Notes under the pieces: model-generated
Database searches by the model: none
What the model was told of the DNA's origin: nothing
What the model saw: only the letters and a program-made list of their open reading frames with translations
Part shown: piece by piece, positions 5,919-22,665 of the stretch
How the letters are laid out: each line of letters starts with the position of its first letter
Numbering within the stretch: position 1 is the first letter of the stretch
Virus record (IMG/VR): IMGVR_UViG_3300020165_002465
Coordinates: 1-29,547 of that record
DNA: 29,547 nucleotides
From: a virus
Reading direction: 5' to 3' (one strand)
Position numbers and translations under genes: made by a program

Positions 5919-6946
5919 TTTAACTCCATTACTTTTTCAAAATCTTCATATGTATTAAATCTATTTTGTGATTGACCAAATACTGATAGGTTTTGATTAG
6001 CTAAATGTTTTAATTTATCATACCACCCACCTCGTTGGTTTGGTCCTTTTTCTTGTGTACATACTCTATCACCTTCCATTTGTAAACAATAGTTTCTTTT
6101 TTGAGGATGGTTTCTATTATGTACTTTTAAAATATTTTTTACAATAAATTGTACATATAAATCCCCCATTACCTGTTTACAACTATTCATCATACTTGTA
6201 TCATCAACCGCGTGACCTAAAATACATCTTGGTACATTAGCCCCATTCTTTACTAAATCCGAACTTAATACTAAAATTGATCCGTCAAATTGAGGGTGTT
6301 TTAAAACCCTTACATCTAATTCATCACATCTTTCGTTTATCGCATTCATTTCTTTAACCGACATCGAATATCGAATACTACTTTGTTCTGTTGTTGCTTT
6401 TGGATCATCTAATTCATAAAAAGGAGCATCTGTAAAATCATTATGTTCTAAAATCTTCCAAGATTCATCCCACATTTTTCTTAATGCGAAAGTGACTACA
6501 TATCTATGTACATTATTTTGATTAGCATATTCTTTAATATTATCCAAGGTACTAAATGCTTCTTTTGGTAATAGTGCATCTGACTCACCCCATATAACAT
6601 AATCATTATCAACACAACCATAATAGTTTAAATCTCTCCTGTAATCTACCATTGTAATTGGTTTATTATTATCCTCATATATTTTATGAGTAACATTACA
6701 TCCCGTAGATTCAACTAATTTTACTAATGTTAAAAATTTATCTATTAACTTTTTCTTTGATATCTCTTCTCTGTTTATTTTTTCAAAAAACTCAGAAATA
6801 TTGTAAAATAAATCTATTGTAATATTTTCTTTATTTTTAACTGTATTGACAGCATTAATTAAACTTTCTATATGTTCAGAAACCATTTCTATTTCATAGA
6901 ACATTATATGTGTCCCAACTATGTATTTATTTTTTATTTCAATCAT
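5915..6946 (-). CDS. Putative GT-A-like glycosyltransferase, 343 aa
   Basis: I start it at the ATG ending at 6946, which overlaps the upstream stop (ATGA) and has an AGGA Shine-Dalgarno; an upstream in-frame ATG at 6988 lies inside the neighbour. Residues 7-16 (KYIVGTHIMF) and 38-50 give the opening strands of a nucleotide-sugar fold. ITMVDYRRDLNYYG (97-110) resembles the segment before the DxD of GT2 enzymes, and DYVIWGESDALLP (115-127) supplies an ESD in the DxD place. The C-terminal third is specific and unrecognised. The call rests on this strand order and on the neighbours; I am only moderately sure. Confidence 0.55.
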   Translation of the reverse strand: MIEIKNKYIVGTHIMFYEIEMVSEHIESLINAVNTVKNKENITIDLFYNISEFFEKINREEISKKKLIDKFLTLVKLVESTGCNVTHKIYEDNNKPITMVDYRRDLNYYGCVDNDYVIWGESDALLPKEAFSTLDNIKEYANQNNVHRYVVTFALRKMWDESWKILEHNDFTDAPFYELDDPKATTEQSSIRYSMSVKEMNAINERCDELDVRVLKHPQFDGSILVLSSDLVKNGANVPRCILGHAVDDTSMMNSCKQVMGDLYVQFIVKNILKVHNRNHPQKRNYCLQMEGDRVCTQEKGPNQRGGWYDKLKHLANQNLSVFGQSQNRFNTYEDFEKVMELK

Positions 6947-8460
6947 GATTTTCCTATGTTGTATATTTGTGATAATCCTATTCCACATTCACCTGCTAAA
7001 GAATATAACATATATAGTTTGTTATCCTCTTTGTAAATATAAGGATCTCTTAGTTCGTTGACCGGTCCTCCATATCTTAAAGTAGAAGAACCTGGCATAG
7101 ATTTCATTAGAGGGAGATCACCACCCTCATAATTTTTTTTAGGTGATAATACCTTTTCATTTGAAACAATATCCCAAGTATCTAAATTTATTTTTAACAT
7201 TAAAATTGATTCTGGAATATCTCCTATTAAAGAATAAAATAAAAATAATATATTATCTTTAAGATAAACAGCAGAATGTCTCATATTTGGTATCAATTCA
7301 TATATTAATTTAAAGTCACCATTCCAATTATCAGATTCGTATATCACACCACCTATATTTTTATTTTTAGCAACAGAATAAAACTTATCTTTATATTTAA
7401 AAACTCTGAAATAGAATTCACCTAAAACTTTATCGTCTACCTGAAAGTTTATACCATCGTCTGACCAACTGATAAATGATTTTTGACCACCCTCTATATC
7501 TCCGTGATAATACATAATTATACTCTTTAAATCTTCATCAATATGGACATCTGGACTTGCTATGTGATTGCCACAAGGAGTTTTACTTAATTGTAATGTA
7601 CCATTTTCATATATAGCATATGGACCTTTTATATCATTAGAATAGGCCATTCTAATATGTTTACCTTGATGGTGTGCGAAGTATAAATAATACTTTCCAA
7701 GTGGATTTTTAACCCAATCAGGAACCTTAATCAAAGATGGACCATTTATATTATCACCACCTATTTTAATAGTATCTGTTGTAATTATTGGATTAATTCT
7801 TCTCACAACTATTTGTTGATTATAAGAATATTCAAATTCTCGTATATCATCATAAAAATATTTTTTAACTAATTCAACTTGCTTATCGTCATAATATTCA
7901 CTATAATGATTAAAGTCTTTTGGTTTATATGATGATTTACTACGAGGTAAATCTATATTTGATATACCTAAAGTAGAGCATATAACCTTAAAATCATCAG
8001 CTAAACTTTCTATTTTTGCTATATAATCTAACTCAACCTTTCCATTGATTGTTGTATAATTTTGTTGTAAATCATTAACATAGAAATGAGCAGGACCCCA
8101 ATAAGCCTCATCACTACAATATTTTTTTAAAAAAACTTTAAAATCATCAACACTACAATCGTTACCTCTTTTATTCCAATGATACCTAGACACCACTAAG
8201 CTCCACGGATTTCTTACAATAGCAAATTTAAAAAATGAATTCCAAACATCATCACCAACAAATTGTTTTACATCTTTAATTGGTGGGTGTGGATGACTTG
8301 TAAAAAACTTATCTATATTGCTAGCAGTTTCTAAACTTTCAGCATCAGGTGTAATAATATCATCAGGACCACAAAACGGTATGAGTGCTTTTTGTATACT
8401 AGAACCAGCAGTTTTTCTGGTTTTCATAAAAATAAATTTATGTTTATATGATATTATCAT
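6943..8460 (-). CDS. Sulfotransferase fused to glycosidase-like five-bladed beta-propeller, 505 aa
   Basis: Two domains in one frame. Residues 1 to about 212 form a PAPS-dependent sulfotransferase. The 5'-phosphosulfate loop is KTRKTAGSS (13-21), directly after the first strand. The 3'-phosphate site is VRNPWSLVVSRYHW (82-95), with Arg83 and Ser91 at the usual eight-residue spacing. From about 222 to the end is a beta-propeller like those of GH43/GH32/GH117-type enzymes: NGPSLIKVPDW, YYLYFAHHQGKHIRMAYS (257-274), HIASPDVHID (299-308), SFISWSDDGINF, and near the end ELRDPYIYKEDNKLYMLYS. The M1 start is needed to keep the first strand. It may sulfate a glycan while the propeller binds or trims it; that coupling is inference. 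Confidence 0.85.
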   Translation of the reverse strand: MIISYKHKFIFMKTRKTAGSSIQKALIPFCGPDDIITPDAESLETASNIDKFFTSHPHPPIKDVKQFVGDDVWNSFFKFAIVRNPWSLVVSRYHWNKRGNDCSVDDFKVFLKKYCSDEAYWGPAHFYVNDLQQNYTTINGKVELDYIAKIESLADDFKVICSTLGISNIDLPRSKSSYKPKDFNHYSEYYDDKQVELVKKYFYDDIREFEYSYNQQIVVRRINPIITTDTIKIGGDNINGPSLIKVPDWVKNPLGKYYLYFAHHQGKHIRMAYSNDIKGPYAIYENGTLQLSKTPCGNHIASPDVHIDEDLKSIIMYYHGDIEGGQKSFISWSDDGINFQVDDKVLGEFYFRVFKYKDKFYSVAKNKNIGGVIYESDNWNGDFKLIYELIPNMRHSAVYLKDNILFLFYSLIGDIPESILMLKINLDTWDIVSNEKVLSPKKNYEGGDLPLMKSMPGSSTLRYGGPVNELRDPYIYKEDNKLYMLYSLAGECGIGLSQIYNIGKS

Positions 8461-9190: not shown

Positions 9191-10092
9191 TTTACTATTT
9201 TGTTTTTAATAAATTTTATAATATCACCACTTGGTTTCCACCCCAATATATCTCTAGCCTTGGTGTCTTTATTTAAAGTTTCTCTCATCTCACCTGGTCT
9301 TCCATCAATATACTCTGTAGGGTAGTCCCCAAATGCTTCAGCTAATTCATTGATAGAACGATTACTACCATTACCTAATTCATAAGATTGACCATCTGTG
9401 ACTTTAATATCAGTTAAAAGACTAAAACCGCATCGAACTAATCCATCAACAATATCTCCAACATAGGTAAAGTCTCTTCGTTGTTCTCCATCACCTGTAA
9501 TAGTTAGTGGTTCTCCATTACTGAATTGTCTCTGAAATATACCCAATACATTACAATAACTACCTTCACTTGCTTGATGTTCCCCATACACATTATAGAA
9601 TCTACAAATAGAAGTTGGAACTTCAAAGAGTTTATTGTATAATTCTATCAAATGCTCGTTCTGCCATTTAGTAAATGTGTATGGATTAGCATACACATCC
9701 CCCTTTACAGAAGATGAACCAGCATATATGACTGGTGTCTTGGTTAATTTAGCCCAATCTAATAAATTAATAGTAGCCATAGGACCTGATTTAAATGTAT
9801 CAACTGGTTTTTTAAATGATGGTACAATTCTCGGTAAAGCAGCTAAATGAAATATTATATCAACAGGTTCTATTTGATATTCACATGTCACTTCATATTC
9901 GGATACATCCGATAAATCCCACCAATTGGTTTTTGATAAATCTCTGTCGAAATATTCACAACCATCTTGTTCGTTTTCTTTTTTACCCGTTGAGTAATTA
10001 TCAACCGATACTACCTCATGGTCATCTTTTAATAATCTTTTTATTAAATTAGTTCCAACAAATCCAGCACCACCTGTCACCAGTATTCTCAT
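9187..10092 (-). CDS. NAD-dependent nucleotide-sugar epimerase/dehydratase (extended SDR), 301 aa
   Basis: An extended short-chain dehydrogenase acting on a nucleotide sugar, of the UDP-glucose 4-epimerase / UDP-glucuronate decarboxylase type. Seen: NAD loop VTGGAGFVG (residues 5-13), acidic Asp31 after the second strand, FHLAALPR, AGSSSVKGD for the catalytic Ser, and Tyr138/Lys142 in NPYTFTKWQNE. Later come RFYNVYGEHQ, DFTYVGDIVDGL and a terminal ARDILGWKPSGD, all standard for this family. The exact reaction (epimerase, decarboxylase or 4,6-dehydratase) cannot be read from these motifs. It overlaps both neighbours by 4 bases, which places it in the same transcript as the two GT8-like transferases around it. 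Confidence 0.88.
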   Translation of the reverse strand: MRILVTGGAGFVGTNLIKRLLKDDHEVVSVDNYSTGKKENEQDGCEYFDRDLSKTNWWDLSDVSEYEVTCEYQIEPVDIIFHLAALPRIVPSFKKPVDTFKSGPMATINLLDWAKLTKTPVIYAGSSSVKGDVYANPYTFTKWQNEHLIELYNKLFEVPTSICRFYNVYGEHQASEGSYCNVLGIFQRQFSNGEPLTITGDGEQRRDFTYVGDIVDGLVRCGFSLLTDIKVTDGQSYELGNGSNRSINELAEAFGDYPTEYIDGRPGEMRETLNKDTKARDILGWKPSGDIIKFIKNKIVK

Positions 10093-10901
10093 ACATACCT
10101 CTCTTTAATTATATCCCAAGTTTGCTTCATCATATCTTCTCTACCACCCCTTTGTGGAAAACCACTATAAAACCAAATATAACCATTTTTGATGAAAAAT
10201 GGAGTTTTATCATTTCCATCTTGCCAATTATGACTCAACCAATCAAATCTATGTAAGTGATTTAAATAATAAGATGGTGGTAATTTATGAACAACATTAA
10301 CATTATGAATTTGAAGTAAATAATTATAAACTGGCTGATCAGTTCCCCTTCCTACCTTGTCATTTTGTAGTACCATAATATCATCGTAATTATCATAATA
10401 AAAATCTTTTACTTTTTCCAAAAACAACTTGTGGTTTTTATCAAAGATTTGCCACCCACAACTTGAATATTCTTTTAAATCAAAATTAAAATTAGGATAA
10501 TATTTTTTAAAGAAATCAGAGTAGCCACTTACCCCCTCGTTTACCCATCTGATATTTTCAAGTGATCTAAATAAATTTACTTCACCATTATCAACAAAAT
10601 CAAAAAAGTTAGGTGTATCCCATCTGATAATTGTACAAGCATCTATCAATGCTATCTTATTATACTCTATATTGGTTTTATCTAATTGATTAAATACATC
10701 AAACCACCTTTGCCAAGTAGGTTTATGTTTTATATGCTCATCATCAGATGGCGTGTCATAGATAACAAGCTCAACATTATTTTTTTTACACCAATATTCC
10801 CAAGATGGAATTGAATATTTAAAATATTTAAATCCACCATGTTTTTTGTGTAAGTATTCGTGTTTACTAGCAGCTGCTATTAAGAATATAACATTTTTCA
10901 T
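10089..10901 (-). CDS. GT-A glycosyltransferase paralogue with altered DxD, 270 aa
   Basis: Paralogue of the 248-residue transferase at 8444-9190, sharing the order SIPSWEYWCKKNN (with SIKSWEHWAEKNN in the other), KPTWQRWF (KPQWHKLF) and GRGTDQPVYNYLL (GVGTDQPVINFFL). The DxD motif is altered: IDACTII gives Asp87-Ala-Cys89 where the paralogue has Asp-Ser-Asp, and the NSGV block is replaced by SSCGWQIFDKNH. It may therefore use a different metal geometry, or be a weak or non-catalytic copy. It follows a 53-base AT-rich gap and overlaps the epimerase gene by 4 bases. Donor unknown. Confidence 0.72.
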   Translation of the reverse strand: MKNVIFLIAAASKHEYLHKKHGGFKYFKYSIPSWEYWCKKNNVELVIYDTPSDDEHIKHKPTWQRWFDVFNQLDKTNIEYNKIALIDACTIIRWDTPNFFDFVDNGEVNLFRSLENIRWVNEGVSGYSDFFKKYYPNFNFDLKEYSSCGWQIFDKNHKLFLEKVKDFYYDNYDDIMVLQNDKVGRGTDQPVYNYLLQIHNVNVVHKLPPSYYLNHLHRFDWLSHNWQDGNDKTPFFIKNGYIWFYSGFPQRGGREDMMKQTWDIIKERYV

Positions 10902-10954: not shown

Positions 10955-12481
10955 TTAATTATTTATTTTGATACTTAGTTTATTTCCTATACCTTCACCA
11001 TTTTTTAAAGAAAAACACCAATCGTGATGTGGGCAATAAAGTTTATCACCTTCAATTCTACCATTAGATAAATCACCTAATGCGTGTGGGCAATACCTTT
11101 GAATTTTAAGTGTTTGACCGTTAACCTCTTTAATAAATGTTTCTTTTAATTTTTCATCCCTTTCCATTAATTTATAATGCCTTTCAAGATATCGAAAACA
11201 ATCATTGTCAGCAAACTTTAAAAAATTAATTAGTAATTGGTCGAATTCATCTGGTTTCCGAAAGGCTTTAAATCTAAAACTTAAAAATAAATCTTCCCAA
11301 AATAATTTCTTTTGAAAAATTAAATTTAAATATTTAGCATCAATATCAAATGTATACCAATGTTTTTCATTTTTATATTGACTAACACTATTACTGACGC
11401 TTGAGAAATCAATTATTATTTTTTCTTCAATGCAACCAATGACATTTATTAATAATTTACCTCTACTATTTTCTCTAAAGAATTTATTTGATTCTATTAA
11501 TGGTTCAAAATATTTTTTACAATCCGTTAATAAACTATTTTTTACAGGTTCAGAAATATCTTTTATACTCTGTCTTATTAACTTCTCCCTTCTATTCTTA
11601 TAATCTTCTAAATATTTTTTCTTGTTAGAAAAAAACTTTTTCTTTAAATTATTATCAGATGTTAATTTACAGTTTTCTTTAGAAATTCTATCTCCTGGTA
11701 CTACTAATAATATTTCATGATCTGTAGTTGAAGTAAGTTTTTTATAAACAGAGTCACCAGTCATAAAGATTGAATCTTTAATAAAGTTAAGATGAAAAAA
11801 TTCTTCATCTAAAAAACATGGTGGTCCTGCACATGGAATTGAAACATCGGCATTTAATGCAGTTATCATATTTTCGGCTTTTTTAAGATACGATTTTCTT
11901 TTACTTAGTCTAATCTTTCTCTGCTCTTCATCAGAATATTCATATGAATGTGGGTGCCAAGACGCACCAGCAACTTGAAAAAACAAATAATCAATGTCTT
12001 CAAAATTATCGTTTATCCATTTTTTATCATCAGTTGATAAATTCATATCATTTGCATTTACTATTACCTCATCATTAGTTTTAAAAATCAGACAAGCATC
12101 ATCCCAACCTGGTGAACAGATTATTGGTGTGTATTCAATTCCTTTAAGGTTTATTGTATCTTTAGTTACAACTTCTATAATTTCATTATCTACAGCTTCT
12201 GATAATAAGTTATAAAATCTCCTATTTCTATATTTAGGAATTACTATTTTTACTTTATCATTTAATGTTCTTAACCACAATGGATCAAAATGGTCTTGAT
12301 GTTCGTGAGAAATACATACAAAATCCAAATCGTCTTTCCATTCCATATTAATTTCACTATTGTCAGGAAATTGATGCCAGTTGTATAGAAATGCACCAGT
12401 CTTAGAAAACCAAGGATCTGTAACTAAAGAAGTGTCATCTGTTTTGATATAGATACTGGCGTGACCTAAGAATTTAATCAT
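10955..12481 (-). CDS. Metallo-beta-lactamase-fold protein with C-terminal Rieske [2Fe-2S] domain, 508 aa
   Basis: Residues 1 to about 250 are an UlaG-like metallo-beta-lactamase domain: GHASIYI at the start, TDPWF (21-25), the metal motif SHEHQDHFDP (58-67, H59-x-H61-x-D63-H64), and NANDMNLS later. A helical middle region (about 290-435) contains LFWEDLFLSFRFKAFR. The end is a Rieske domain: Cys464-Pro-His466, 16 residues, then Cys483-Pro-His-His486, matching C-x-H...C-x2-H. The pairing of Rieske and MBL domains is known in vertebrate CMP-Neu5Ac hydroxylase, where the order is reversed. With neuA, neuB and neuC a few kilobases away, hydroxylation of a nonulosonate or another sugar is possible; this is inference. 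No reductase partner is visible. Confidence 0.85.
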   Translation of the reverse strand: MIKFLGHASIYIKTDDTSLVTDPWFSKTGAFLYNWHQFPDNSEINMEWKDDLDFVCISHEHQDHFDPLWLRTLNDKVKIVIPKYRNRRFYNLLSEAVDNEIIEVVTKDTINLKGIEYTPIICSPGWDDACLIFKTNDEVIVNANDMNLSTDDKKWINDNFEDIDYLFFQVAGASWHPHSYEYSDEEQRKIRLSKRKSYLKKAENMITALNADVSIPCAGPPCFLDEEFFHLNFIKDSIFMTGDSVYKKLTSTTDHEILLVVPGDRISKENCKLTSDNNLKKKFFSNKKKYLEDYKNRREKLIRQSIKDISEPVKNSLLTDCKKYFEPLIESNKFFRENSRGKLLINVIGCIEEKIIIDFSSVSNSVSQYKNEKHWYTFDIDAKYLNLIFQKKLFWEDLFLSFRFKAFRKPDEFDQLLINFLKFADNDCFRYLERHYKLMERDEKLKETFIKEVNGQTLKIQRYCPHALGDLSNGRIEGDKLYCPHHDWCFSLKNGEGIGNKLSIKINN

Positions 12482-13386
12482 ATTTTTAAATAATCTTTTG
12501 CTTCTTTAACCCATTGGTTAAACACAGACATCCCCCTACTACCACCCTGCGTAGCATGAAAAAATATAGGAATGTCATCTAACCAAGCCTGTTCTCCTTT
12601 AGGAAAATTCAATAAATGCTCTTTCCATAACCCATTATCTGATCTGAATCTATCTCTATATGAATTCTTTAAGATAAACCAATCATATCCTTTTTCTTTT
12701 GCATACCAAGTCACATTACCACCAATATCTCTATAATCACAATTATAAGGACTAGTTTTCCAAATTCCCCTTTCAACATAATTTTCAGATTCTATTTCAT
12801 CATACAACTCTCTTTTACATAACATCAACATAATTCTAGCCATACCGTCATCCCATGTACCATCACAAGTGCCTTTCTGTTTTAGATATTCAAATACATT
12901 ACCAGGACACCATCTATTTGATACAAACTTATATGTATCTAATAATTTTAATAACTCAGTTGCATGTGAATTTAAAAAAATAGTATCACAATCTAATACA
13001 CAAACATATTCTCTATCACCTGCTTTTACGCCGAGACTTAAAGCATCCGAACCATAATAACCACCAGAAGCTATACCACATCCATCAATTAAACCAATTG
13101 TTCGACTCTCATCTATTTTATAAGTAAATCCACCGTGTGGCCAGTCTATACGTTGTGGTGATTGATCTACACCTTCTAAGATAACCACATTGTCATTATC
13201 TCCAAAAAGTTCTTTATGAAGTTTCATTTCTAATTCTTTATCAAAATAATTAACCACTAAATATATAGTATGCTCTACCGACTTCCAATACCTGTTAATA
13301 CTCTCAACATTAAACCTAGTGAAATCAATTTTTTCAGCACCATAACAACTTGCTATTACAAAATCTACTCCATTTTTTTTATTCAT
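12478..13386 (-). CDS. GT-A-type glycosyltransferase, 302 aa
   Basis: Probable cytosolic sugar transferase. Residues 7-14 (VDFVIASC) begin the nucleotide-binding fold. CVLDCDTIFLNS (129-140) carries Asp132-Cys-Asp134 as the DxD metal motif, preceded by a helix with GSDALSLGVKAG. The C-terminal part ends with IPIFFHATQGGSRGMS and QWVKEAKDYLKI, which mirror the gene at 15565-16422 (IPFLHHAGRGAARTID, QWVSEVSKYLNI), so the two are paralogues. It has a GAGG Shine-Dalgarno and overlaps its upstream neighbour by one base and the MBL/Rieske gene by four. Donor and acceptor unknown. Confidence 0.72.
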   Translation of the reverse strand: MNKKNGVDFVIASCYGAEKIDFTRFNVESINRYWKSVEHTIYLVVNYFDKELEMKLHKELFGDNDNVVILEGVDQSPQRIDWPHGGFTYKIDESRTIGLIDGCGIASGGYYGSDALSLGVKAGDREYVCVLDCDTIFLNSHATELLKLLDTYKFVSNRWCPGNVFEYLKQKGTCDGTWDDGMARIMLMLCKRELYDEIESENYVERGIWKTSPYNCDYRDIGGNVTWYAKEKGYDWFILKNSYRDRFRSDNGLWKEHLLNFPKGEQAWLDDIPIFFHATQGGSRGMSVFNQWVKEAKDYLKI

Positions 13387-14033
13387 TATATAACCTCATA
13401 ATATCCACCCACTTTAAAGGGCATGTTCGCATTAATTGTAAGATGTTCACTTCCAAAATACCTTGACATTGGTATCACTCTAAAATCTATACTTGCTCTT
13501 GTTTTTGTTGTTCTATTAACTTTATTACCATGTGTTAAATTTGTGGCACTCCACTCTACACATTCACCATAATCTGCTTTTATTTCAGTATAATCGCCCA
13601 AATCTTCCTCTGTTTCTGCCCATACTGTATTAGTTCCATAGGCTTTTGTAAATGGTAAAAAATAATTTATCTCTTGAACTTTGTTAGCCCAATCTTTATT
13701 TCTATAATTCTTATCCTTATGAAACTCACCAACTGAAATATTATCTGGCAGATGAACCCTAAATGTTGGTATTTTTTGATAAACAATTTCTTCATTATTA
13801 TATAGTGGTTTTATATATTCTTTTAAAAATAATTTATAAATATCATCAAATCTATTGTCAATTCTAATTTGATTGTAAAACATTTTATGCCACATAGATG
13901 ATTGGTCATTTTGTCTTTTAAATAATTTATATTTTTTAAATTCATGTAGTTTTGATAAGTCATCGGTTTCTAACCAATCACTAACTATTTCTTGAAATTG
14001 GTACTTCAATGTATCATAATTAAATTTAAACAT
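13386..14033 (-). CDS. Putative 2-oxoglutarate/Fe(II) oxygenase (StrG-like), 215 aa
   Basis: Resembles the StrG-like / phytanoyl-CoA-type non-haem iron oxygenases found in sugar and antibiotic clusters. The expected iron ligands are present: His105-x-Asp107 in GEFHKDKNY and a distal His168 in NLTHGNKVN. Arg179 in TKTRASIDFRVIP is placed to bind 2-oxoglutarate. FRVHLPDNISVGEFHKD and EINYFLPFTKAYGTNTVW form the core double-stranded beta-helix strands. It would hydroxylate or otherwise oxidise a small molecule or sugar in the cytosol. It follows the radical SAM gene by 11 bases and is transcribed with it, so the two may act on the same substrate. Family call moderate, substrate unknown. Confidence 0.7.
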   Translation of the reverse strand: MFKFNYDTLKYQFQEIVSDWLETDDLSKLHEFKKYKLFKRQNDQSSMWHKMFYNQIRIDNRFDDIYKLFLKEYIKPLYNNEEIVYQKIPTFRVHLPDNISVGEFHKDKNYRNKDWANKVQEINYFLPFTKAYGTNTVWAETEEDLGDYTEIKADYGECVEWSATNLTHGNKVNRTTKTRASIDFRVIPMSRYFGSEHLTINANMPFKVGGYYEVI

Positions 14034-14044
14034 AATTATTTTCT

Positions 14045-15568
14045 TTACCTCGCACTATGAATCTCACCAGTGTTTGTATCATTTATTTGCCAGTTTTTTC
14101 TATTTTTTATATGATCTGATAAGTTACAATCTTCCCAAGCTTGTTGGCGTAACTCTTCAAGTTTGTTTGGTGGTATTGAAGTATTTATCATATTAGCCTT
14201 AGTCCACTGCATTCTATCTATATTATAGTCTTTTGGAAGTTGACCATTTCGCATAACCTCATCAAACATCGGTGTTCCTGGTAAAGGCATTACTAAAAAG
14301 AAATTGGAAGCATCTAAACCATATGACATATTTTGTTTAGCAAAATCTATAGTTTCTTTTATTTCTTTTTCTGTCTCATCAGGAAAACCAACCATGTAAT
14401 TAGCAGCAACTCTCATACCAACTCTTTTTATTTCTTTCACTAAGTTTTTTACATCAAAATCTTCGACTTTCCATTTGTTAGAACACCATTTTTTTACTAT
14501 CCTGTGATTAGCAGATTCAAATGGTAGAACTATGTCTCTAAATCCAGCATCTGCTAAAAGCTCTATGACTTCTACATCGGGCTTCCCCTTTTTAGTAAGA
14601 TGAATAACATTTACTCCGTTTACATCAAGTATCTCTAAACCAACTCCTATGATTTTCTTCAACATATTGATAGCTCTTCTTTTCATACCAAATATAGAAT
14701 CATCTTCAACGAACACTTGTTTCGCACCTATCACATCTCTCAAATATACTAACTCTTCTAAAACTCTTTCATCGGATTTAATTCTAAACCTTCCTATTTC
14801 ATCAGACATAGAGCCTTTTGTTTCGTGAGCTATATGACAATATGAACAAGCAAAGGGACAACCCAATGAGGTCATCATAGAAACATACTTTAGCTCTTCA
14901 TCATCTTTAAAATGACCACCATGAGGTCTTCTAATTTCCCAATATCTTTCATTTGGTAATAAATCCCAAGCAGGCATTGGTAATTCATCTAAATTCCAAA
15001 TAATATCACCAAGATGAGCAGTATTAATAACTTTATTATCTTTTTTAAATAATATTTTTGGAACTGAACTCCAATCTGTGCTACCACTTCGATAAACTTT
15101 CATAATCTTTTTGATAGTCAATTCTGATTCAGAAGTACATACTATGTCAAACCCAGCATCTAAAAATATGTTATGTCTAGCTCTAGCATTTACACCCCCA
15201 CAAAACAATATTTTTTTAGGAAAATGTTTTTTTATTAAACGGCAACAATGTAAAACCATAGTTTCTTGTAGAGAAAAAATAGAAGTCAATCCAACAAAAT
15301 CAAAATCCTTCACCATCTGTAGAATTCTATCATCACTTACGCCAGTTCTTAATAATCCACTTTTAAGTGGTGTTGGATTAAAGAAAAAGTTTTTATATTC
15401 ATCGTCATCATTTCCAACACAAGCATCGTATACCTCAACATCTACATTTATCTCTCTCAAAGCACCAGCTAACATTGGATATGCTAGCGAACCGTTTGGC
15501 TTACATAAAGTTTCAGGCCAATTCTGTTCTGGTGGATATAAAAGTAAAACTCTAGGTTCTTGTATCAT
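14045..15568 (-). CDS. Radical SAM enzyme with N-terminal B12-binding-like domain, 507 aa
   Basis: Residues 5 to about 160 have the layout of a cobalamin-binding domain (VLLLYPPEQNWPE, then VGLTSIFSLQE, then ILFCGGVNARA), but the DxHxxG motif that would bind B12 from below is absent, as in many members. The radical SAM core begins near 228 with the 4Fe-4S motif Cys237-x3-Cys241-x2-Cys244 in SLGCPFACSYCH. VFVEDDSIFG, LPFESANHRI and NYMVGFPDETEKEI are typical later strands of these enzymes. Family members do methylations, ring rearrangements and thiomethylations. Next to sugar genes and a 2OG oxygenase it may modify a sugar, possibly by methylation; this is inference. Confidence 0.88.
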   Translation of the reverse strand: MIQEPRVLLLYPPEQNWPETLCKPNGSLAYPMLAGALREINVDVEVYDACVGNDDDEYKNFFFNPTPLKSGLLRTGVSDDRILQMVKDFDFVGLTSIFSLQETMVLHCCRLIKKHFPKKILFCGGVNARARHNIFLDAGFDIVCTSESELTIKKIMKVYRSGSTDWSSVPKILFKKDNKVINTAHLGDIIWNLDELPMPAWDLLPNERYWEIRRPHGGHFKDDEELKYVSMMTSLGCPFACSYCHIAHETKGSMSDEIGRFRIKSDERVLEELVYLRDVIGAKQVFVEDDSIFGMKRRAINMLKKIIGVGLEILDVNGVNVIHLTKKGKPDVEVIELLADAGFRDIVLPFESANHRIVKKWCSNKWKVEDFDVKNLVKEIKRVGMRVAANYMVGFPDETEKEIKETIDFAKQNMSYGLDASNFFLVMPLPGTPMFDEVMRNGQLPKDYNIDRMQWTKANMINTSIPPNKLEELRQQAWEDCNLSDHIKNRKNWQINDTNTGEIHSAR

Positions 15569-16422
15569 ATTTGTATGTTTAAATATTTAGAAACTTCGGA
15601 AACCCATTGTTCATAATAATCTATTGTTCTAGCAGCACCTCTACCAGCGTGGTGTAAAAATGGTATTCCATCAATAAACCCCTCTTCTCCAAAATTAACA
15701 TTTAATAAATGTTCTGATTTTAAACTACGATCTTCAAGACTATTTTTTAAAATTAGGTAAGGTTTATTAAATTCTCTAGCCCATAGTGACAGTAAACCAT
15801 AAGTGTCTTTATAATGGCAATTTGGATATAAGTCGCCAGGTTCTCTGTAAAAGTTGTTTTCTATTGTTTTTCTTTTTAAAATAGACCATTGTGGGGTAAG
15901 TGCTTGGTCTATATCTTCTCTCCAAGCATAAGAAATAAATGAATTATTTTTTAATAAGGGTAATATAGAATCTACCCATTTATTTAAAAAGACCACATCA
16001 TGTTCAACCTGACATACATATTTCCCATTTCCAAGTTTAGTACCTATTGTCATAGCTTCTGCCTGTAACCAACTAGCAAAACCTAGAGGTCTTCTGTCAT
16101 ATTTACTATAACCATCCCAACCATAATTATCAATAAAATATTGTTGTGGATATTTTTGATTAGATTTTGATGGGACACATAATCCATCATCTTGATTGAT
16201 CTGTTTTACACCTTCAACAACAACAACACTATCCTCACCGTCAAACATCTTTTTCAATGACTTCAACTCAGCACTATCTTTAGAATTATCACCATTGTTG
16301 ACAACATAAAACTTGTATGGATGGTCTACATATTTTTTTATACTTTCATAAATTAATTTTGCGTAATTTATTCTCTTATATACTACAGTTACAAAATCAA
16401 TACTTTCTACATATTTGTTCAT
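15565..16422 (-). CDS. GT-A-type glycosyltransferase, 285 aa
   Basis: Paralogue of the transferase at 12478-13386. Residues 8-15 (IDFVTVVY) open a GT2-like nucleotide-binding fold, with FYVVNNGDNSKD after the second strand. The metal motif is VCQVEHDVVFLN, where Glu140-His-Asp142 replaces the usual DxD. The end repeats the family blocks SLEDRSLKSEHLLNVNFGEE, IPFLHHAGRGAAR and EQWVSEVSKYLN. It overlaps the radical SAM gene and the methyltransferase gene by 4 bases each (ATGA). Family call is good at fold level. Substrate unknown. Confidence 0.7.
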   Translation of the reverse strand: MNKYVESIDFVTVVYKRINYAKLIYESIKKYVDHPYKFYVVNNGDNSKDSAELKSLKKMFDGEDSVVVVEGVKQINQDDGLCVPSKSNQKYPQQYFIDNYGWDGYSKYDRRPLGFASWLQAEAMTIGTKLGNGKYVCQVEHDVVFLNKWVDSILPLLKNNSFISYAWREDIDQALTPQWSILKRKTIENNFYREPGDLYPNCHYKDTYGLLSLWAREFNKPYLILKNSLEDRSLKSEHLLNVNFGEEGFIDGIPFLHHAGRGAARTIDYYEQWVSEVSKYLNIQI

Positions 16423-16997
16423 TTATTTTTCCATACTTCAAATATATTTGTTCCGGTAATAGATTTTGAATCTTTAACTTTACGCCCCTCTAAGTTTAAA
16501 GAGATAGGTATTTCAAAAACTTGTCCTTGTGAATAATCCCAATAATCACCATGACTTACCCTTTGATAAGCCCATTTATGCACAGATGTTAATCCACATC
16601 TATTCATTAATCCAGTTAATGATTTATCATCAAAAATACAATAATGATATTCATAATCATAAGATTGACCACCTACAGTTAAACCAAGTATATTTTCTAT
16701 TCTCTTGTCTGATTTGTGATAAACTTTTATAGCCTGTTCAAAATCAGGAACTGCTAACCTAACTATACCATCAACTTTTGTTACCCTAACCCACTCTCGT
16801 AAAACAGCTTCCACTTTATCACGAGGAAAATGTTCAAGTGTATGAGCAGAATAAACCAAATCAAATGTATTGTCTTTAAATGGCAATTTATCAAGACCAT
16901 TTACAACATGATCTACTCCCTCTAATTCTCTACCATCTAAATTCTCAAATGGTTTTGGTAGAATAACATCACCACACCCTATATGTAAATATCTCAT
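16419..16997 (-). CDS. SAM-dependent methyltransferase (Methyltransf_11-like), 192 aa
   Basis: A small class I methyltransferase. The first strand is YLHIGCGDV (residues 3-11), giving a shortened Gly loop. LDKLPFKDNTFDLVYSAHTLEHF (35-57) is the classical post-motif II/III stretch, with the D-x-V-x-S and L-E-H signature of Methyltransf_11 proteins. LREWVRVTKVDGIVRLAVPDF follows as motif III. The expected acidic residue at the end of strand 2 is present as LDGREL. The start has a GGGAG Shine-Dalgarno and lies two bases after the aminotransferase. It would methylate a sugar or small molecule; which one is not visible. Confidence 0.8.
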   Translation of the reverse strand: MRYLHIGCGDVILPKPFENLDGRELEGVDHVVNGLDKLPFKDNTFDLVYSAHTLEHFPRDKVEAVLREWVRVTKVDGIVRLAVPDFEQAIKVYHKSDKRIENILGLTVGGQSYDYEYHYCIFDDKSLTGLMNRCGLTSVHKWAYQRVSHGDYWDYSQGQVFEIPISLNLEGRKVKDSKSITGTNIFEVWKNK

Positions 16998-16999
16998 AT

Positions 17000-18124
17000 T
17001 TAAACTCCCGTTGTATTAAAATTATAAATTTGTTCACATATATAATTAACTTCGTCATCAGTTAATGATTGGTGTAAAGGTAGGCATAATGTTCTATCCA
17101 TTATTTTTTCTGTATTTTTTAATGAAAGCCCATCGTCATAGTACTTGACCTTATGTAAAGGGTAATATCTAAATGAAGTATATACTCCATTGTCTTTTAA
17201 ATGTCTAGCCAACTCATCTCTTTTATCTGTTTGAATATGATACATATAGTATGAACTTTCTTTATTGATTGGTATCTCTCGTGGAACATCAATCCAATCC
17301 ACATGTTTCAATGTATTGTTATACATTGTATGTATTTCTTTTCGCCTTGATATAAAACCATCTAACTTTTTAAGTTGTTCTAAACCTATAGCAGCAGTAA
17401 CATCATTTATTATTACTCTTCTACCAGGCAACTCTATATCAAATTCCCACCATTTGGTATCTATAGAATTTGAAAATCCACTAGCACTTTTTAAACCCAA
17501 GTATGCTTCATAATCAAGTCTTTTAGCTAACTCAAGGTCTTTACAATAAACTAAACCACCATCACCCATAACTAATATTTTCATAGCATCAAATGACCAA
17601 AGACCTATATCACCAATAGTTCCCGTAAACTGATTGTTGTATTTTGATATGGGACTATTAGCATTATCTTCTATTAACTTAATATTGTGTTTATCACACA
17701 AATCCACTATTTCATCCATGTCACACGGAACACCAGCGTAATGTAGTATTATTACCGCTTTTGTTTTTTTAGTTATATTTTTTTCTATGTCATCAGCACT
17801 TACGTTTAAAGTTCTACTATCAACATCACAGAATATTGGTTTAGCACCACGACTAACAATAGCATTAGCAGCTCCTATAAAACTTATTGATGGTAATATA
17901 ACTTCATCACCTTCTTCTATTTCAAGTATATTCATTGATTGAAATAAACCTTCCGTACAACTACAAATAGTTTTAAAATTATCGGGATGTGATTGTAACT
18001 TTAATGAAAAGTTTTCAACAAATTTTTCTGTCAATTTTCCCTTTCCCAACCAATTACTTTTAAATACCTTTTCGATAGCATCAAGTTCTTCTTGGCCAAG
18101 TGAGGGTTGATAAATATTAATCAT
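17000..18124 (-). CDS. DegT/DnrJ/EryC1/StrS-family PLP aminotransferase, 374 aa
   Basis: Transfers an amino group to a keto-sugar nucleotide, the step that makes amino-deoxy sugars. Asp153 in LIEDNANSP contacts the pyridine nitrogen of PLP. Lys182 in WSFDAMKILVMGDGG is the Schiff-base lysine. CTEGLFQSMN (56-65) binds the phosphate region. The C-terminal half has VTAAIGLEQLKKL, YYMYHIQ and LPLHQSLTDDEV, all normal for the family; the length is standard. It has an AGGAG Shine-Dalgarno and follows a 51-base gap with a possible promoter. Its partner could be the FlaA1- or RmlB-type dehydratase upstream (legionaminic-type path) or GMD (perosamine); the sequence does not decide. Confidence 0.92.
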   Translation of the reverse strand: MINIYQPSLGQEELDAIEKVFKSNWLGKGKLTEKFVENFSLKLQSHPDNFKTICSCTEGLFQSMNILEIEEGDEVILPSISFIGAANAIVSRGAKPIFCDVDSRTLNVSADDIEKNITKKTKAVIILHYAGVPCDMDEIVDLCDKHNIKLIEDNANSPISKYNNQFTGTIGDIGLWSFDAMKILVMGDGGLVYCKDLELAKRLDYEAYLGLKSASGFSNSIDTKWWEFDIELPGRRVIINDVTAAIGLEQLKKLDGFISRRKEIHTMYNNTLKHVDWIDVPREIPINKESSYYMYHIQTDKRDELARHLKDNGVYTSFRYYPLHKVKYYDDGLSLKNTEKIMDRTLCLPLHQSLTDDEVNYICEQIYNFNTTGV

Positions 18125-18145
18125 TAATACTCCTGTTGTAATCTC

Positions 18146-18174
18146 AATTTACTAATTAATTCTATGAAAGTCAA
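18146..18174 (-). promoter_or_regulatory. Possible sigma-70-like promoter before the aminotransferase gene
   Basis: In one of the two longest gaps between genes (51 bases), the minus strand reads TTGACT at 18174-18169, a 17-base spacer, then TAAATT at 18151-18146. These match five of six -35 bases and four of six -10 bases of the sigma-70 consensus. The aminotransferase ATG follows about 20 bases later with an AGGAG site between. In DNA this AT-rich such matches arise by chance, so the call is weak. An internal promoter would let the downstream block be transcribed apart from the neu genes. Confidence 0.3.
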
Positions 18175-18175
18175 G

Positions 18176-18868
18176 TTAAAAAGAATTTAATTTTATAATT
18201 TTTAAATTATCGACTTCAAATTCAAAGTTTGATGCTGTGTACATATTGAATTTTATATTTGATTTTTTTGTTACAACCTTTTTAAAAAAGTCTTGCATTA
18301 AATCTGTCGGATCATGACGATTTGCTAATTCATTGTTTCCGTGGTCATTTCTTTCCTTACCGATTGAATTTGTAAAGTAACCTGTACCGACTATACCAAT
18401 ATTTTCATAAAAATCCATTCCAATAATATTAACTTCATCAGGTTTAAGTTGGTTTACTATATACAACAGCGCGTCTAACCCACTAGAGGGTGAAGTGTAA
18501 GCATATCTTGGATGTGATATCATATCTTTTTTATTTATGTCATCTAAATTTTCAACTGGCAATATCCCATCACGACCTTCTATCTGTAAAAAATGATTTG
18601 GAATAGGCGGTGATACCTCTTTCACATATGGTAAAATAATTTTATCAAAGTTATATTTTTTATAAAGTTCAGTAGCACCTGATTGTGGAAAATAAGCAGC
18701 TAAACTCAACACATGAGTAACATTAGAAGATGCTGATAAATATTCATCTATAAACTTATCTTCTGCTTCATAATGAAAACCATTAACGATAACACTATGA
18801 TTTACTTTAGGCACACTACTAATATGTCCTAATGAATCTCCTCGGCAGAGTAATGTTACTGCTTTCAT
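18176..18868 (-). CDS. Putative GT42-like sialyltransferase, 230 aa
   Basis: Layout resembles bacterial GT42 sialyltransferases (Campylobacter Cst type), compared from memory. An N-terminal strand and loop (VTLLCRGDSLGHI, residues 4-16) stands where Cst-II has a G-N-G-P-S-L loop. SPSSGLDALLYIVNQL (126-141) and VNIIGMDFYENIG (146-158) parallel the TSG helix and the S-G-I-D-F-Y strand. NRHDPTDLMQDFFKKV (183-198) places His185 like the catalytic His of Cst-II. It has a GAGAGG Shine-Dalgarno and overlaps the CMP-sugar synthetase by 4 bases, the expected neighbour for an enzyme using CMP-sialic acid. At 230 aa it is somewhat short. A related alternative is a DUF115/Maf-type transferase. Confidence 0.55.
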   Translation of the reverse strand: MKAVTLLCRGDSLGHISSVPKVNHSVIVNGFHYEAEDKFIDEYLSASSNVTHVLSLAAYFPQSGATELYKKYNFDKIILPYVKEVSPPIPNHFLQIEGRDGILPVENLDDINKKDMISHPRYAYTSPSSGLDALLYIVNQLKPDEVNIIGMDFYENIGIVGTGYFTNSIGKERNDHGNNELANRHDPTDLMQDFFKKVVTKKSNIKFNMYTASNFEFEVDNLKIIKLNSF

Positions 18869-19536
18869 TTATTACCTCTCATTATCTTTTTAACTAACTT
18901 TAAATCCTCGTGGGTATCTATATCAATAGACTCGCTCTCTTCCATAACAACAAATCCAACATTACCATTTTGTAAAATATTAGATTTTAAAAAATTATGT
19001 TTCGTTGTAACATAGAAAGCTCCATTTTCTCTATACCAAGTTTGATGCTCTTGAGTTCTTTTTCTGTTACCCAATTCAAAATTTATTGGTTTGCCATTGT
19101 CACCCCAATAGTAATTTACATCTTTACATACTGATATAATAGAATGATAACTACTATAAATATCCAAAGGCCGATGCATCTGCTCAATACCAAATAAAAT
19201 AGAATAAAAATGTAATAAAGGTGATGTGGGTTGTACTACACAAAATAAATCCGTTTCTATTTTTTCTAAAAAATGTTTCACAACGTCTTCTGTTTTTGCT
19301 TTATCAGTTGCTAATCTTTCAGGCCTTTCTATTACATTTACACCCATAGACTTTGTAAATTTTTTTATATCAATGTCATCAGTACTGACATAAATTTCAT
19401 CAGTAATGTTTTTACAAGTTTCTATTACATATTGTAATAATGGTTTACCGTTTACATCAACTAAGTTCTTTTTTGGTATTCGTTTTGAACCACCTCTTGC
19501 TGGTATTAATATTTTTATATTATCCATAAATTCCAT
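18865..19536 (-). CDS. neuA: CMP-nonulosonic acid (CMP-Neu5Ac type) synthetase, 223 aa
   Basis: Activates a nonulosonic acid with CTP to give the CMP-sugar donor. The nucleotide loop is IPARGGSKRIPKKN (11-24), the family signature. VVQPTSPLL, YRENGAFYVTTK and ESIDIDTHEDL are the later conserved blocks; the length fits NeuA/LegF/PseF single-domain enzymes. The motifs do not separate Neu5Ac from legionaminic or pseudaminic substrates. An in-frame ATG at 19527 (Met4) has GGA four bases upstream and would also give a normal N-terminus, so the start is uncertain by three residues. It overlaps the dehydratase gene upstream by 17 bases and the sialyltransferase candidate by 4. Confidence 0.92.
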   Translation of the reverse strand: MEFMDNIKILIPARGGSKRIPKKNLVDVNGKPLLQYVIETCKNITDEIYVSTDDIDIKKFTKSMGVNVIERPERLATDKAKTEDVVKHFLEKIETDLFCVVQPTSPLLHFYSILFGIEQMHRPLDIYSSYHSIISVCKDVNYYWGDNGKPINFELGNRKRTQEHQTWYRENGAFYVTTKHNFLKSNILQNGNVGFVVMEESESIDIDTHEDLKLVKKIMRGNK

Positions 19537-20482
19537 ATTTAAATAAAGATTTTTTTAAGTTCTTATCTGTTTCAGCCACCATATCAATCATCTCATCAAC
19601 ATTCATTTTCTTTGCAGTTAATGATGAATATTCTTCTGTTAGAATATCTGTACGGCTTGTGTTTTCTTCTTCTGTTATTTTAATAAAATCTCCTATACAA
19701 TGACTGTATGGCAACTCATTAGTACTTATCAAAGTTTCATCCAATTTTTCACCTGGTCTTCTTCCTATTTCTTCTACATCATCTGAAATTACTTTAGCCA
19801 ACTCTAACATATTCACTGTTTTCATTTTTTTAGATAAAATAAAACCACCATCACCCTTCTGTGTCCACTGCATTGTTTTATGTACTAAATCAACAGCTTC
19901 TCTCTGTGAAAACATTAATCTATTCATCCGAGAATCAGTTAACTTTAATGTTTCATTGTTAGCTTTTAACCTTAACCAAAATGGCAATACCGATCCGTGA
20001 CTATGTGTAACATTTCCAAATCTACATACAGAAAACTTATTTATTTCATTATTTGCTTCTATGAACATTTTTTCCATTAGCAATTTACTATACCCATAAT
20101 TCTGTTCAGGTATACATGCTTTATCTGTACTTACAGCTATTGTAACTGGCACATTATATTCAGAAGAACATTCAATAACATTCAAACTACCAATAATATT
20201 TGATTTTATAGTTTGTATTGGTGTTATTTCTCCCGTATCAACATGCTTTAAAGCAGCAGCATGTATTATCACATCAGGTTTAATATCTATGATAGCTTGT
20301 GATAATGTAATTTTATCCTCTACTGCTCCTAAAATTATTTTTACTTTATCAAAACTCCTCTTTAAAGAGACTTGCATTTTTTCATTTCTACTATAGCTAT
20401 AAAATTTATAATCATCATAATAATTTTTTATAAAACTTGATCCAATTGTTCCAGATCCACCTGTTATTAAAACTTTTTTCAT
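19520..20482 (-). CDS. FlaA1/PseB/CapD-type UDP-sugar 4,6-dehydratase (SDR), 320 aa
   Basis: A cytosolic extended SDR of the UDP-GlcNAc 4,6-dehydratase group. Seen: VLITGGSGTIGSSF (4-17) for NAD(P), IHAAALKHVDTGE for the active-site loop, AVSTDKACIPEQNYGYSKLLME with catalytic Tyr/Lys, CRFGNVTHSHGSVLPFW, and RRPGEKLDETLIS, the signature of FlaA1/PseB/CapE enzymes. I start at the ATG ending at 20482 because AGGAG lies six bases upstream; the in-frame ATG at 20488 directly abuts that site. In a nonulosonate cluster this suggests the dehydration step of a legionaminic- or pseudaminic-type path, but the sugar is not proven. There is no transmembrane part, unlike CapD. Confidence 0.88.
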   Translation of the reverse strand: MKKVLITGGSGTIGSSFIKNYYDDYKFYSYSRNEKMQVSLKRSFDKVKIILGAVEDKITLSQAIIDIKPDVIIHAAALKHVDTGEITPIQTIKSNIIGSLNVIECSSEYNVPVTIAVSTDKACIPEQNYGYSKLLMEKMFIEANNEINKFSVCRFGNVTHSHGSVLPFWLRLKANNETLKLTDSRMNRLMFSQREAVDLVHKTMQWTQKGDGGFILSKKMKTVNMLELAKVISDDVEEIGRRPGEKLDETLISTNELPYSHCIGDFIKITEEENTSRTDILTEEYSSLTAKKMNVDEMIDMVAETDKNLKKSLFKYGIYG

Positions 20483-20491
20483 ATTCATCTC

Positions 20492-21634
20492 CTAGTAAGT
20501 AATTCTTTTTTGAATAACTTTATTACCTATGTTTATTTTTTTTAAAATTTTTATAATTCTATTTGAAGAATTTCCATCCCCATATGGATTTTCACAATAT
20601 AAAATATTTTTTTGGAATATTTTATCGTTCAATATTTTATTTATAGCTCCGGTTATCTCATACTCCTCGTAGTCAACATCTATTAAGTTTTCTGGTCTTA
20701 ATCTACCTTGTTGCCTTGTCCCAATATTAATAGTTGGAACTTTAAATGTTGCTGTTTCGTGAATACCAGAACTAGAATTTCCTATCAAAGCTGTAGCATA
20801 ACTCAATAAAGAAACATAATCTTTTAGAGACAGTGTTGGGAAGTATTTTATATTACTATTTTTTATTTCTTCTATTATAACTTGAGAACCTGCATCATTA
20901 TTTGGATAAATTAAAACACTCGGTACACCACTTTTCTTTATCGCATTTAAAGTTTCTTTTATTTGTCTTTTAGCATCACTTAATTCTGTTGTGACAGGAT
21001 GTTGTAAAACTAAAAAAAACTTTTTCTTAACATCTACATCAAATTTATTTTTTATTTCATCAGGTGTGCTTTTGTTAACACTTAACATAGCGTCAATTGA
21101 TGGACACCCCACAACAAAAATATGTTTGGGTACTTCACCCATTTTGATTAATCTATTTTTAGCATCATTATTGCTAACTAAATGGTAATGTGAAAATTTA
21201 CTAACAGCATGCCTAATAGATTCATCAATCGTACCACTTACTTCTCCGCCTTGAATGTGTACTACAGGTATATTCATGTGGGCACCAGCAATTGATACTG
21301 CTAAATTAGCACCTATATCAAATCCAGATAAAATTATATCTGGTTTGGATTCTTCTATAGCATCAACTAGTCCTATTGTCACACGACCTAAAGCCTTAGT
21401 CATCTCAGCACCACTATCTCTATCTACACTATCGTTAAACATTTCTACAGTTTTAAAGACTTTAAAACCACCTTCTTTTATTTCATTGATAGTTTTACCA
21501 TAACTATCCAGTAAATGTATACCGGTAACAACTAAATCATAATCTAAATCTTCATCATTACTTATCAGTTCTAATATGGGTTTAAATCTACTAAAGTCTG
21601 CTCTTCTTTCCGTAACCACAAATACTTTTCTCAT
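20492..21634 (-). CDS. neuC: Hydrolysing UDP-GlcNAc-type 2-epimerase (NeuC/LegG family), 380 aa
   Basis: Makes N-acetylmannosamine (or its 2,4-diamino analogue) from the UDP sugar, the step before NeuB. A GT-B-like fold is clear: [15 protein letters not shown] near the start, [38 protein letters not shown] in the middle, and [14 protein letters not shown] in the nucleotide site. The length of 380 matches the hydrolysing epimerases NeuC and LegG. It sits between neuB and the FlaA1-type dehydratase, overlapping neuB by 4 bases. I give neuC as the symbol by family; with a dehydratase and aminotransferase beside it, LegG is equally possible. Confidence 0.9.
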
Positions 21635-22665
21635 TTAAAATCTTCCCAAGTTAAATGTTCATCATTTTTGATGTCTCTAATTGATACCTTTCCAAGTAAA
21701 GTTTTATAATGTTCTGCTTTTATATTACCTGTTCCTGGTCGTTTTACCCAAATATTATCCTTATTTAATTTTTCACCCTTCGATATATCTTTGATAGAAA
21801 CAACTGTAGCAAAAGCAAAATCCATAGTAACCTGCTCTTCTTTCAGTTCTAATTTACTACCACCTCTCATTTTAAAAACTTCTTCACTACCTCGTATCAA
21901 CTCTCCTAATTCTTTTGTATCCATAGAATTTAATATATCAGGACCTTCTCTATCCTTTGTATCTATAAAATGTCTTTCTAAAATTGAAGCCCCTAAACCA
22001 GTAGCAGCAAGACAAGCATTATTATTTATTGTATGGTCTGATAAACCTATAACAGCATTTGGAAAATTATCTTTTAATTCTATCATAGCTCCAAGTCTAA
22101 CAAGATGAAATGGTGTTGGATATAAATTAGTAGTATGTAACAAAGCGTATTCAATATTATTATCTTCTAATATAGTAACCGTCTTTCTGACACTTTCTAT
22201 CGTATTCATACCAGTTGATACTATCATTGGCTTACCAAAAGATGCAACATGCTCTATCAAAGGATAATTGTTACATTCACCTGAACCAATTTTATAAGCA
22301 GAAACTCCCATTCTTTCTAACCTATTAGCTGCAGCTCTTGAAAATGGAGTGCTTATAAAGATTGCACCTTTTAATTCAACATAATTTTTTAGTTCTATTT
22401 CATCATCTTCGGATAAGGCACATTCGTTCATAATGTCATATATTGAAGAATTTGAATTTCCTGGAATAATCTTTTTGGATAGTTTTGACATTTCATCATC
22501 TATAACATGAGTTTGATGTTTTATTATTTCTACCCCTTGACTACAAGCCTCGTCAACTAAATGTTTTGCTAAATTTAAATCACCATTATGATTTATACCA
22601 ATCTCAGCAATAACTAAAGGTTTGTAATCAGAACCTATTAATCTATCATTTATCAACATTTTCAT
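21631..22665 (-). CDS. neuB: Nonulosonic acid (sialic acid-type) synthase, 344 aa
   Basis: Condenses phosphoenolpyruvate with N-acetylmannosamine or a related 6-carbon sugar to give a 9-carbon acid. Seen: [15 protein letters not shown] (16-30), the NeuB signature with Glu21 and the Asn-His-Asn metal/PEP site; [48 protein letters not shown]; and [22 protein letters not shown]-terminal SAF (antifreeze-like) domain from about 285 includes [11 protein letters not shown]. The length is standard. NeuB, LegI and PseI share these motifs, so the product could be Neu5Ac or legionaminic acid; the NeuC-type partner argues against pseudaminic acid. It overlaps the RmlB-like gene by 20 bases. Confidence 0.94.

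Follow-up and report, generated by a model that had tools for sequence, protein, structure and literature searches.

N-glycolyl groups are rare in nature and have been tied to two pathways, that of bacterial muramic acid and that of animal sialic acid (PMC6481270). In the former, NamH (Mycobacterium tuberculosis orthologue Rv3818), which combines an N-terminal UlaG domain with a C-terminal Rieske domain, converts the N-acetyl group of muramic acid to N-glycolyl (PMC10050696). The animal enzyme, CMAH, has been described in a 2019 review as a distant homologue of prokaryotic N-glycolylmuramic acid genes, and no known microbe can make Neu5Gc according to the same review (PMC6481270). Here we describe a related gene in a 29,547-nucleotide stretch of viral DNA (the window), where it is carried in a glycan island with nonulosonate genes.

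A viral gene with the domain order of NamH

The gene is an ATG-started frame of 508 codons that runs without frameshift on the minus strand, while the plus strand over the same interval is riddled with stops. Its features are as follows.

10955..12481, minus strand: MBL-SCP2-Rieske protein, 508 aa, putative NamH/CMAH-type N-acetyl hydroxylase
11642..12481, minus strand: metallo-beta-lactamase (MBL) fold domain, residues 1-280 (Pfam and fold)
12290..12307, minus strand: HEHQDH metal motif, residues 59-64
11171..11533, minus strand: SCP2_Rv3818 domain (PF25451), residues 317-437 (Pfam and fold)
10958..11134, minus strand: Rieske [2Fe-2S] domain (Pfam match 450-497, fold to 508)
11024..11092, minus strand: Rieske ligand motif CPH-x16-CPHH, residues 464-486 (spacing checked)

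Pfam recognizes Lactamase_B_3 at residues 2-76 (E 3.1e-9) and Rieske at residues 450-497 (E 1.7e-8), both above cut-off, and between them SCP2_Rv3818 (PF25451; E 5e-13, 49.8 bits against a cut-off of 28.2). An earlier note on this DNA had recognized the HxHxDH motif of an N-terminal MBL domain and a full C-x-H / C-x2-H Rieske site at the C-terminus, and both readings are borne out (HEHQDH at residues 59-64; C464-P-H466 and C483-P-H-H486), but its two-domain architecture missed the SCP2_Rv3818 domain in the middle. Rv3818 is the namesake of that Pfam family, and the order MBL-SCP2-Rieske is exactly the architecture of NamH; the protein is therefore not of an undescribed type, as the note had thought possible.

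The protein aligns colinearly over its whole length with actinobacterial NamH, at about 25% identity, and the metal and Rieske ligands are all kept. The phage protein differs from NamH in a Rieske spacing one residue shorter and in its place in a separate clade with phages and ammonia-oxidising archaea. Across 41 relatives, H7, H59, H61, D63, H64, D128, D145, C464, H466, C483, and H486 are invariant, and within the MBL part of the family H7, H59, H61, and H64 are the sole invariant histidines. Comparison with the homologue on L001, the contig of a sibling phage, gave dN 0.11 and dS 1.34 (dN/dS about 0.08), indicating purifying selection on the hydroxylase gene. The frame at 10955-12481 is thus a real, intact gene under selection.

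The relationship to CMAH was approached with a mammalian CMAH sequence that did not come from a database record, so the comparison serves as a lead. In this sequence a profile built from the NamH-like family matched residues 27-86 (Rieske, 2e-5), 138-361 (MBL, 1.6e-28), and 507-559 (an SCP2-like end, 3e-6), while 200 shuffles and the reversed sequence scored at most 1.2 bits; Pfam recognized the Rieske and MBL domains of the CMAH sequence but not PF25451. With the three family pieces present in permuted order, CMAH looks like a circularly permuted NamH, arranged Rieske-MBL-SCP2-like where the phage protein is arranged MBL-SCP2-Rieske. This agrees with the earlier remark that the same two folds occur in the opposite order in CMAH. 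What the two would have in common are these three homologous parts, N-acetyl to N-glycolyl chemistry, and a sialic-acid pathway setting; what sets them apart is that the gene here is viral and its domain order permuted. Placement of CMAH in the family tree was discarded because of its very long branch (3.38). The abstract of a paper on CMAH distribution reportedly names homologues from two green algae and from a small number of prokaryotes, which means that CMAH-like genes in prokaryotes may not in themselves be a novelty.

An AlphaFold2 model of the 508-residue protein reached a mean pLDDT of 92.2 and a pTM of 0.90, and structural comparison of predicted models recovered the MBL, SCP2, and Rieske folds individually. 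For residues 1-280 the best fold matches were UlaG-type proteins (Z about 21), a comparison the earlier note had proposed, with CmlA (Z 19.8), FrsH (Z 18.8), and NAPE-PLD also close. UlaG-type proteins share the MBL fold but lack an SCP2 or Rieske domain. The C-terminal half modelled alone matched SCP2 proteins (Z up to 11.5) and Rieske ferredoxins (Z about 9). When the profile of the 41 relatives was compared with solved structures, FrsH ranked first (E 9.2e-16) and CmlA second (1.7e-9), with NAPE-PLD (1.3e-8) and other hydrolases below them; sequence searches of solved structures found no NamH or CMAH structure. FrsH is a biochemically demonstrated non-heme diiron hydroxylase (PMC7794379). 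The MBL folds of CmlA and FrsH are related in sequence to the present domain and their HxHxDH motifs align with its own, but both enzymes have a different N-terminal domain and no Rieske domain, and their substrates are carrier-bound amino acids. At CmlA E377, named in the title of 5kil, the family alignment is gapped, and an invariant carboxylate lies close by at D128. From these comparisons we infer that the MBL site most likely holds a diiron centre, and that O2 chemistry would take place there with electrons supplied by the Rieske domain.

Relatives in phages and archaea

The protein belongs to a clade of T4-like phages and ammonia-oxidising archaea at 40-48% identity, and in the tree it groups with four other phage and two archaeal proteins (support 100). 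This clade of viruses and archaea lies outside the clade that holds Mycobacterium, which is not the position of an orthologue of mycobacterial NamH. Genome contigs were scanned for relatives with two short peptide patterns in the sampled phyla. Among the matches listed, the closest cellular relatives come from two Nitrosopumilaceae genomes (42-44% identity), while actinobacterial NamH and one Edaphobacter protein stand well below them at 25-30%. The 151 Nitrosopumilaceae genomes include three with an intact full-length gene and one with the Rieske part as a separate frame, others carrying forms of about 450 aa without Rieske; a strong relative was found in 1 of 199 Acidobacteriota genomes. A search of 50,697 phage records returned no homologue at E 1e-5 and no meaningful one at E 1, and the hydroxylase matched no PHROG family.

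The phage lineage is tailed, its sibling contig L090 encoding a clamp loader and a head maturation protease. By one island gene, the nearest isolates are a Microcystis phage and Flavobacterium phage immuto (Immutovirus). Homologous glycosyltransferase genes open the same glycan island in immuto, but a hydroxylase homologue was not found in isolated phage records.

Variant forms occur among the relatives. Shorter versions with all domains lie on phage contigs of 163 and 181 kb (L094:9995-11440, 481 aa; L095:9995-11383, 462 aa), and in split versions (L132:9050-10671 and L044:1698-3248) a frame of its own, immediately downstream of the MBL part, encodes the Rieske part. On the Edaphobacter contig (L013:7120-11617) a single gene separates a full-length relative from a Rieske-less one, with aminotransferase-like genes nearby.

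The glycan island and its nonulosonate genes

All island genes lie on the minus strand, and the stop of the gene upstream overlaps the hydroxylase start by 4 bases. The main neighbours are listed below.

10089..10901, minus strand: glycosyltransferase-like gene, downstream of the hydroxylase (no Pfam family)
12478..13386, minus strand: glycosyltransferase-like gene, upstream of the hydroxylase (weak Glycos_transf_2 match only)
17000..18124, minus strand: DegT/WecE/PseC/LegC-type sugar aminotransferase
18176..18868, minus strand: 230-aa protein, candidate nonulosonate transferase (homologues beside NeuB in other phages)
18865..19536, minus strand: CMP-nonulosonate cytidylyltransferase, NeuA/PseF-like (TIGR03584, 124 bits, under cut-off; CTP_transf_3)
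19520..20488, minus strand: UDP-GlcNAc 4,6-dehydratase, PseB-like (TIGR03589, E 1.8e-63, under cut-off)
20492..21634, minus strand: NeuC, UDP-N-acetylglucosamine 2-epimerase (TIGR03568, 407 bits, cut-off 235.9)
21631..22665, minus strand: NeuB, nonulosonate synthase of NnaB type (TIGR03569, 378.8 bits, cut-off 399.65)

NeuB scores only 219.7 bits against the PseI model, the best match of the NeuA-like gene is PseF, and a GDP-mannose dehydratase-like gene is also in the island. A homologue of the gene at 10089..10901 follows the hydroxylase gene in L001, L003, and L004 as well. In three phages a protein of 220-230 aa comes after NeuB or NeuA (window 18176-18868, L001:4821-5510, and L003:18272-18934), and its L001 homologue has a sub-threshold match to the CST-I sialyltransferase (E 0.048). 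Two further frames of the window were noted. The frame at 13386-14033, with a homologue in L003, resembles 2-oxoglutarate Fe(II) oxygenases in having an H-x-D followed further on by an H and an R, an assignment set aside since it finds no Pfam support. The 505-aa protein at 6943-8460 has a sulfotransferase domain at residues 2-212, followed by about 290 C-terminal residues that match nothing in Pfam.

NeuA, NeuC, and NeuB begin 6.4, 8.0, and 9.2 kb from the hydroxylase gene on the same strand, in keeping with the earlier statement that neuA, neuB, and neuC lie 6 to 12 kb away in the same run. The linkage recurs on contig L005, which is 99.98% identical over window positions 12371-22481 and ends within the hydroxylase after its first 111 bases, and NeuB is also present on the L001 and L003 contigs of sibling phages. 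Among 45 phages with a common island marker gene, 6 carry a family gene and NeuB, 2 the family gene alone, 9 NeuB alone, and 28 neither (Fisher p 0.011, or about 0.035 once apparent near-duplicate records are merged by eye). One of the two gene-only records is a short contig and the other has the gene near the contig end; two of the six phages with both (G186 and G192) have the Rieske-less form.

Of 22 archaeal family genes, 5 are found no more than 3 kb from NeuB, where random placement would give 0.13; this control ignores the general clustering of glycan genes. None of 200,000 simulations reached as high a count. Four of these five are Rieske-less, so the enrichment supports the wider family rather than the exact enzyme. 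The fifth is full-length (L131:1-3110 of archaeal genome G125); a NeuB fragment and a UDP-GlcNAc 2-epimerase flank it, and sulfatase genes follow at a greater distance.

The gene also occurs apart from NeuB. Four phage records of 52 to 190 kb (G162, G163, G165, and G166) have the gene and no NeuB, as does G158, in which the gene sits 3-5 kb from a contig end. In L216 and L217 the gene sits behind glycosyltransferase genes homologous to those opening the present island, and in L096 it adjoins glycosyltransferase-like genes, while L094 and L095 show no recognisable glycan cluster near the gene, and their records lack NeuB. NeuB does not adjoin the gene in the two closest archaeal relatives (L009 and L010), and G001 lacks NeuB entirely. 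Taken together with the enrichment near NeuB, these cases show a gene that travels with glycan islands generally, and with nonulosonate genes above expectation. Its link to the nonulosonate genes is genuine without being exclusive. The neighbourhood survey proposed in the earlier note thus gave a mixed answer, NeuB proximity above chance in archaea on the one hand and several phages with the gene and without NeuB on the other.

Proposed activity and alternatives

Several lines of evidence point to hydroxylation: the Rv3818 architecture, the colinear alignment to NamH, the ranking of FrsH and CmlA ahead of hydrolases, and, as a lead, the family pieces in the CMAH sequence. On these grounds the protein is likely an O2-dependent nucleotide-sugar N-acetyl hydroxylase of the NamH/CMAH superfamily, the N-acetyl target being deduced from its homologues. 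In the mechanism that we propose, a diiron centre in the MBL domain (H59, H61, D63, H64, D145, and neighbours) would activate O2, and electrons from a host ferredoxin or reductase would reach it through the C-terminal Rieske [2Fe-2S] cluster. Part of the substrate pocket would come from the SCP2-like domain, and in this pocket the methyl of the N-acetyl group would be hydroxylated to yield an N-glycolyl sugar. The substrate would be CMP-Neu5Ac or a legionaminic-type analogue made by NeuC-NeuB-NeuA, and phage glycosyltransferases would then place the product on the virion or host surface.

The identity of the substrate is less secure than the chemistry. Counted for a nonulosonate are neuA, neuB, and neuC on the same strand, NeuB on L001, L003, and L005, the archaeal enrichment, and the association in sibling phages; counted against it are the muramic acid substrate of characterised NamH and the other sugars made by the island. 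A CMP-nonulosonate is the single most likely choice, though we put it forward tentatively and at slightly less than even confidence. The explanation as a whole, that of a phage NamH/CMAH-type N-acetyl hydroxylase acting on the nonulosonate of the neighbouring NeuC-NeuB-NeuA genes, we consider evenly poised between right and wrong. Homologues in pathways unrelated to nonulosonates, which the earlier note had named as evidence against a nonulosonate hydroxylase, do in part exist: actinobacterial NamH works in peptidoglycan, and a number of phages carry the gene but not NeuB. Hydroxylation, as that note proposed, stands as the likely chemistry by homology to NamH and CMAH, and the archaeal enrichment near NeuB keeps the nonulosonate as the leading guess at the substrate.

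The principal competing explanation keeps the N-acetyl hydroxylase but has it act on a different nucleotide sugar, from the island or from the host, such as UDP-GlcNAc, a UDP-diacetamido sugar, UDP-MurNAc, or an N-acetylated dTDP- or UDP-amino sugar; the nonulosonate genes would then be no more than co-residents of a mixed glycan island. NamH itself acts on muramic acid, large phages have the gene without NeuB, glycosyltransferase-like genes are its neighbours in L216, L217, and L096, and the island also holds PseB-like, DegT, and GDP-mannose dehydratase-like genes. Archaea, however, lack murein, and it is in archaea that the enrichment near NeuB is found; within the clade of the window protein, moreover, NeuB is present on the window, L001, and L003 contigs. 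This explanation is a distinct possibility, to which we assign a good third of our belief.

A departure from N-acetyl hydroxylation altogether appears unlikely. In that case the protein, a Rieske/MBL oxygenase or hydrolase, would work on the glycan or a lipid-linked sugar by different chemistry, such as N-deacylation, lactone hydrolysis, or oxidation of a C-H bond at another position, and its Rieske domain would serve for structure or sensing. Such an activity would suit the closeness of the MBL fold to UlaG-type proteins and NAPE-PLD as well, the hydrophobic ligands that SCP2 domains bind, and the Rieske-less MBL relatives encoded beside NeuB. By profile, however, diiron monooxygenases outrank every hydrolase, the four Rieske ligands are all invariant in the full-length set, and N-acetyl hydroxylation is the activity of both characterised relatives built from these three parts. 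That the gene is instead a decaying or non-functional acquisition is very improbable, since its frame is intact, its dN/dS against L001 is low, and all its ligands are kept, even if its patchy distribution and the split or frameshifted copies elsewhere (L044, L132) would fit decay.

Returning to the preferred reading of a nonulosonate N-acetyl hydroxylase, its broadest extension is possible yet doubtful: this phage and ammonia-oxidising archaea, the latter with relatives beside neuB, may make N-glycolyl nonulosonates with an enzyme of NamH order, so that N-glycolyl sialic-type sugars would exist outside animals and animal CMAH would be a permuted member of an older microbial family. If so, phages and murein-free archaea would provide, next to neuB, a third setting for N-glycolyl groups and a possible origin of CMAH-type chemistry. 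The protein would also offer a single-chain model for the enzyme class missing from the solved structures found by sequence, and microbial Neu5Gc-like sugars would become a directly testable question.

Rieske-less MBL relatives of about 420-460 aa adjoin NeuB in ammonia-oxidising archaea and on two virus contigs. Such relatives near NeuB are found at L117:9560-10912, L119:6961-8304, L127:9512-10795, L129:9576-10841, L220:9989-11242, and G192:C1:77492-78727, and they may either constitute a second enzyme that modifies nonulosonates or draw on a Rieske partner that is a separate protein.
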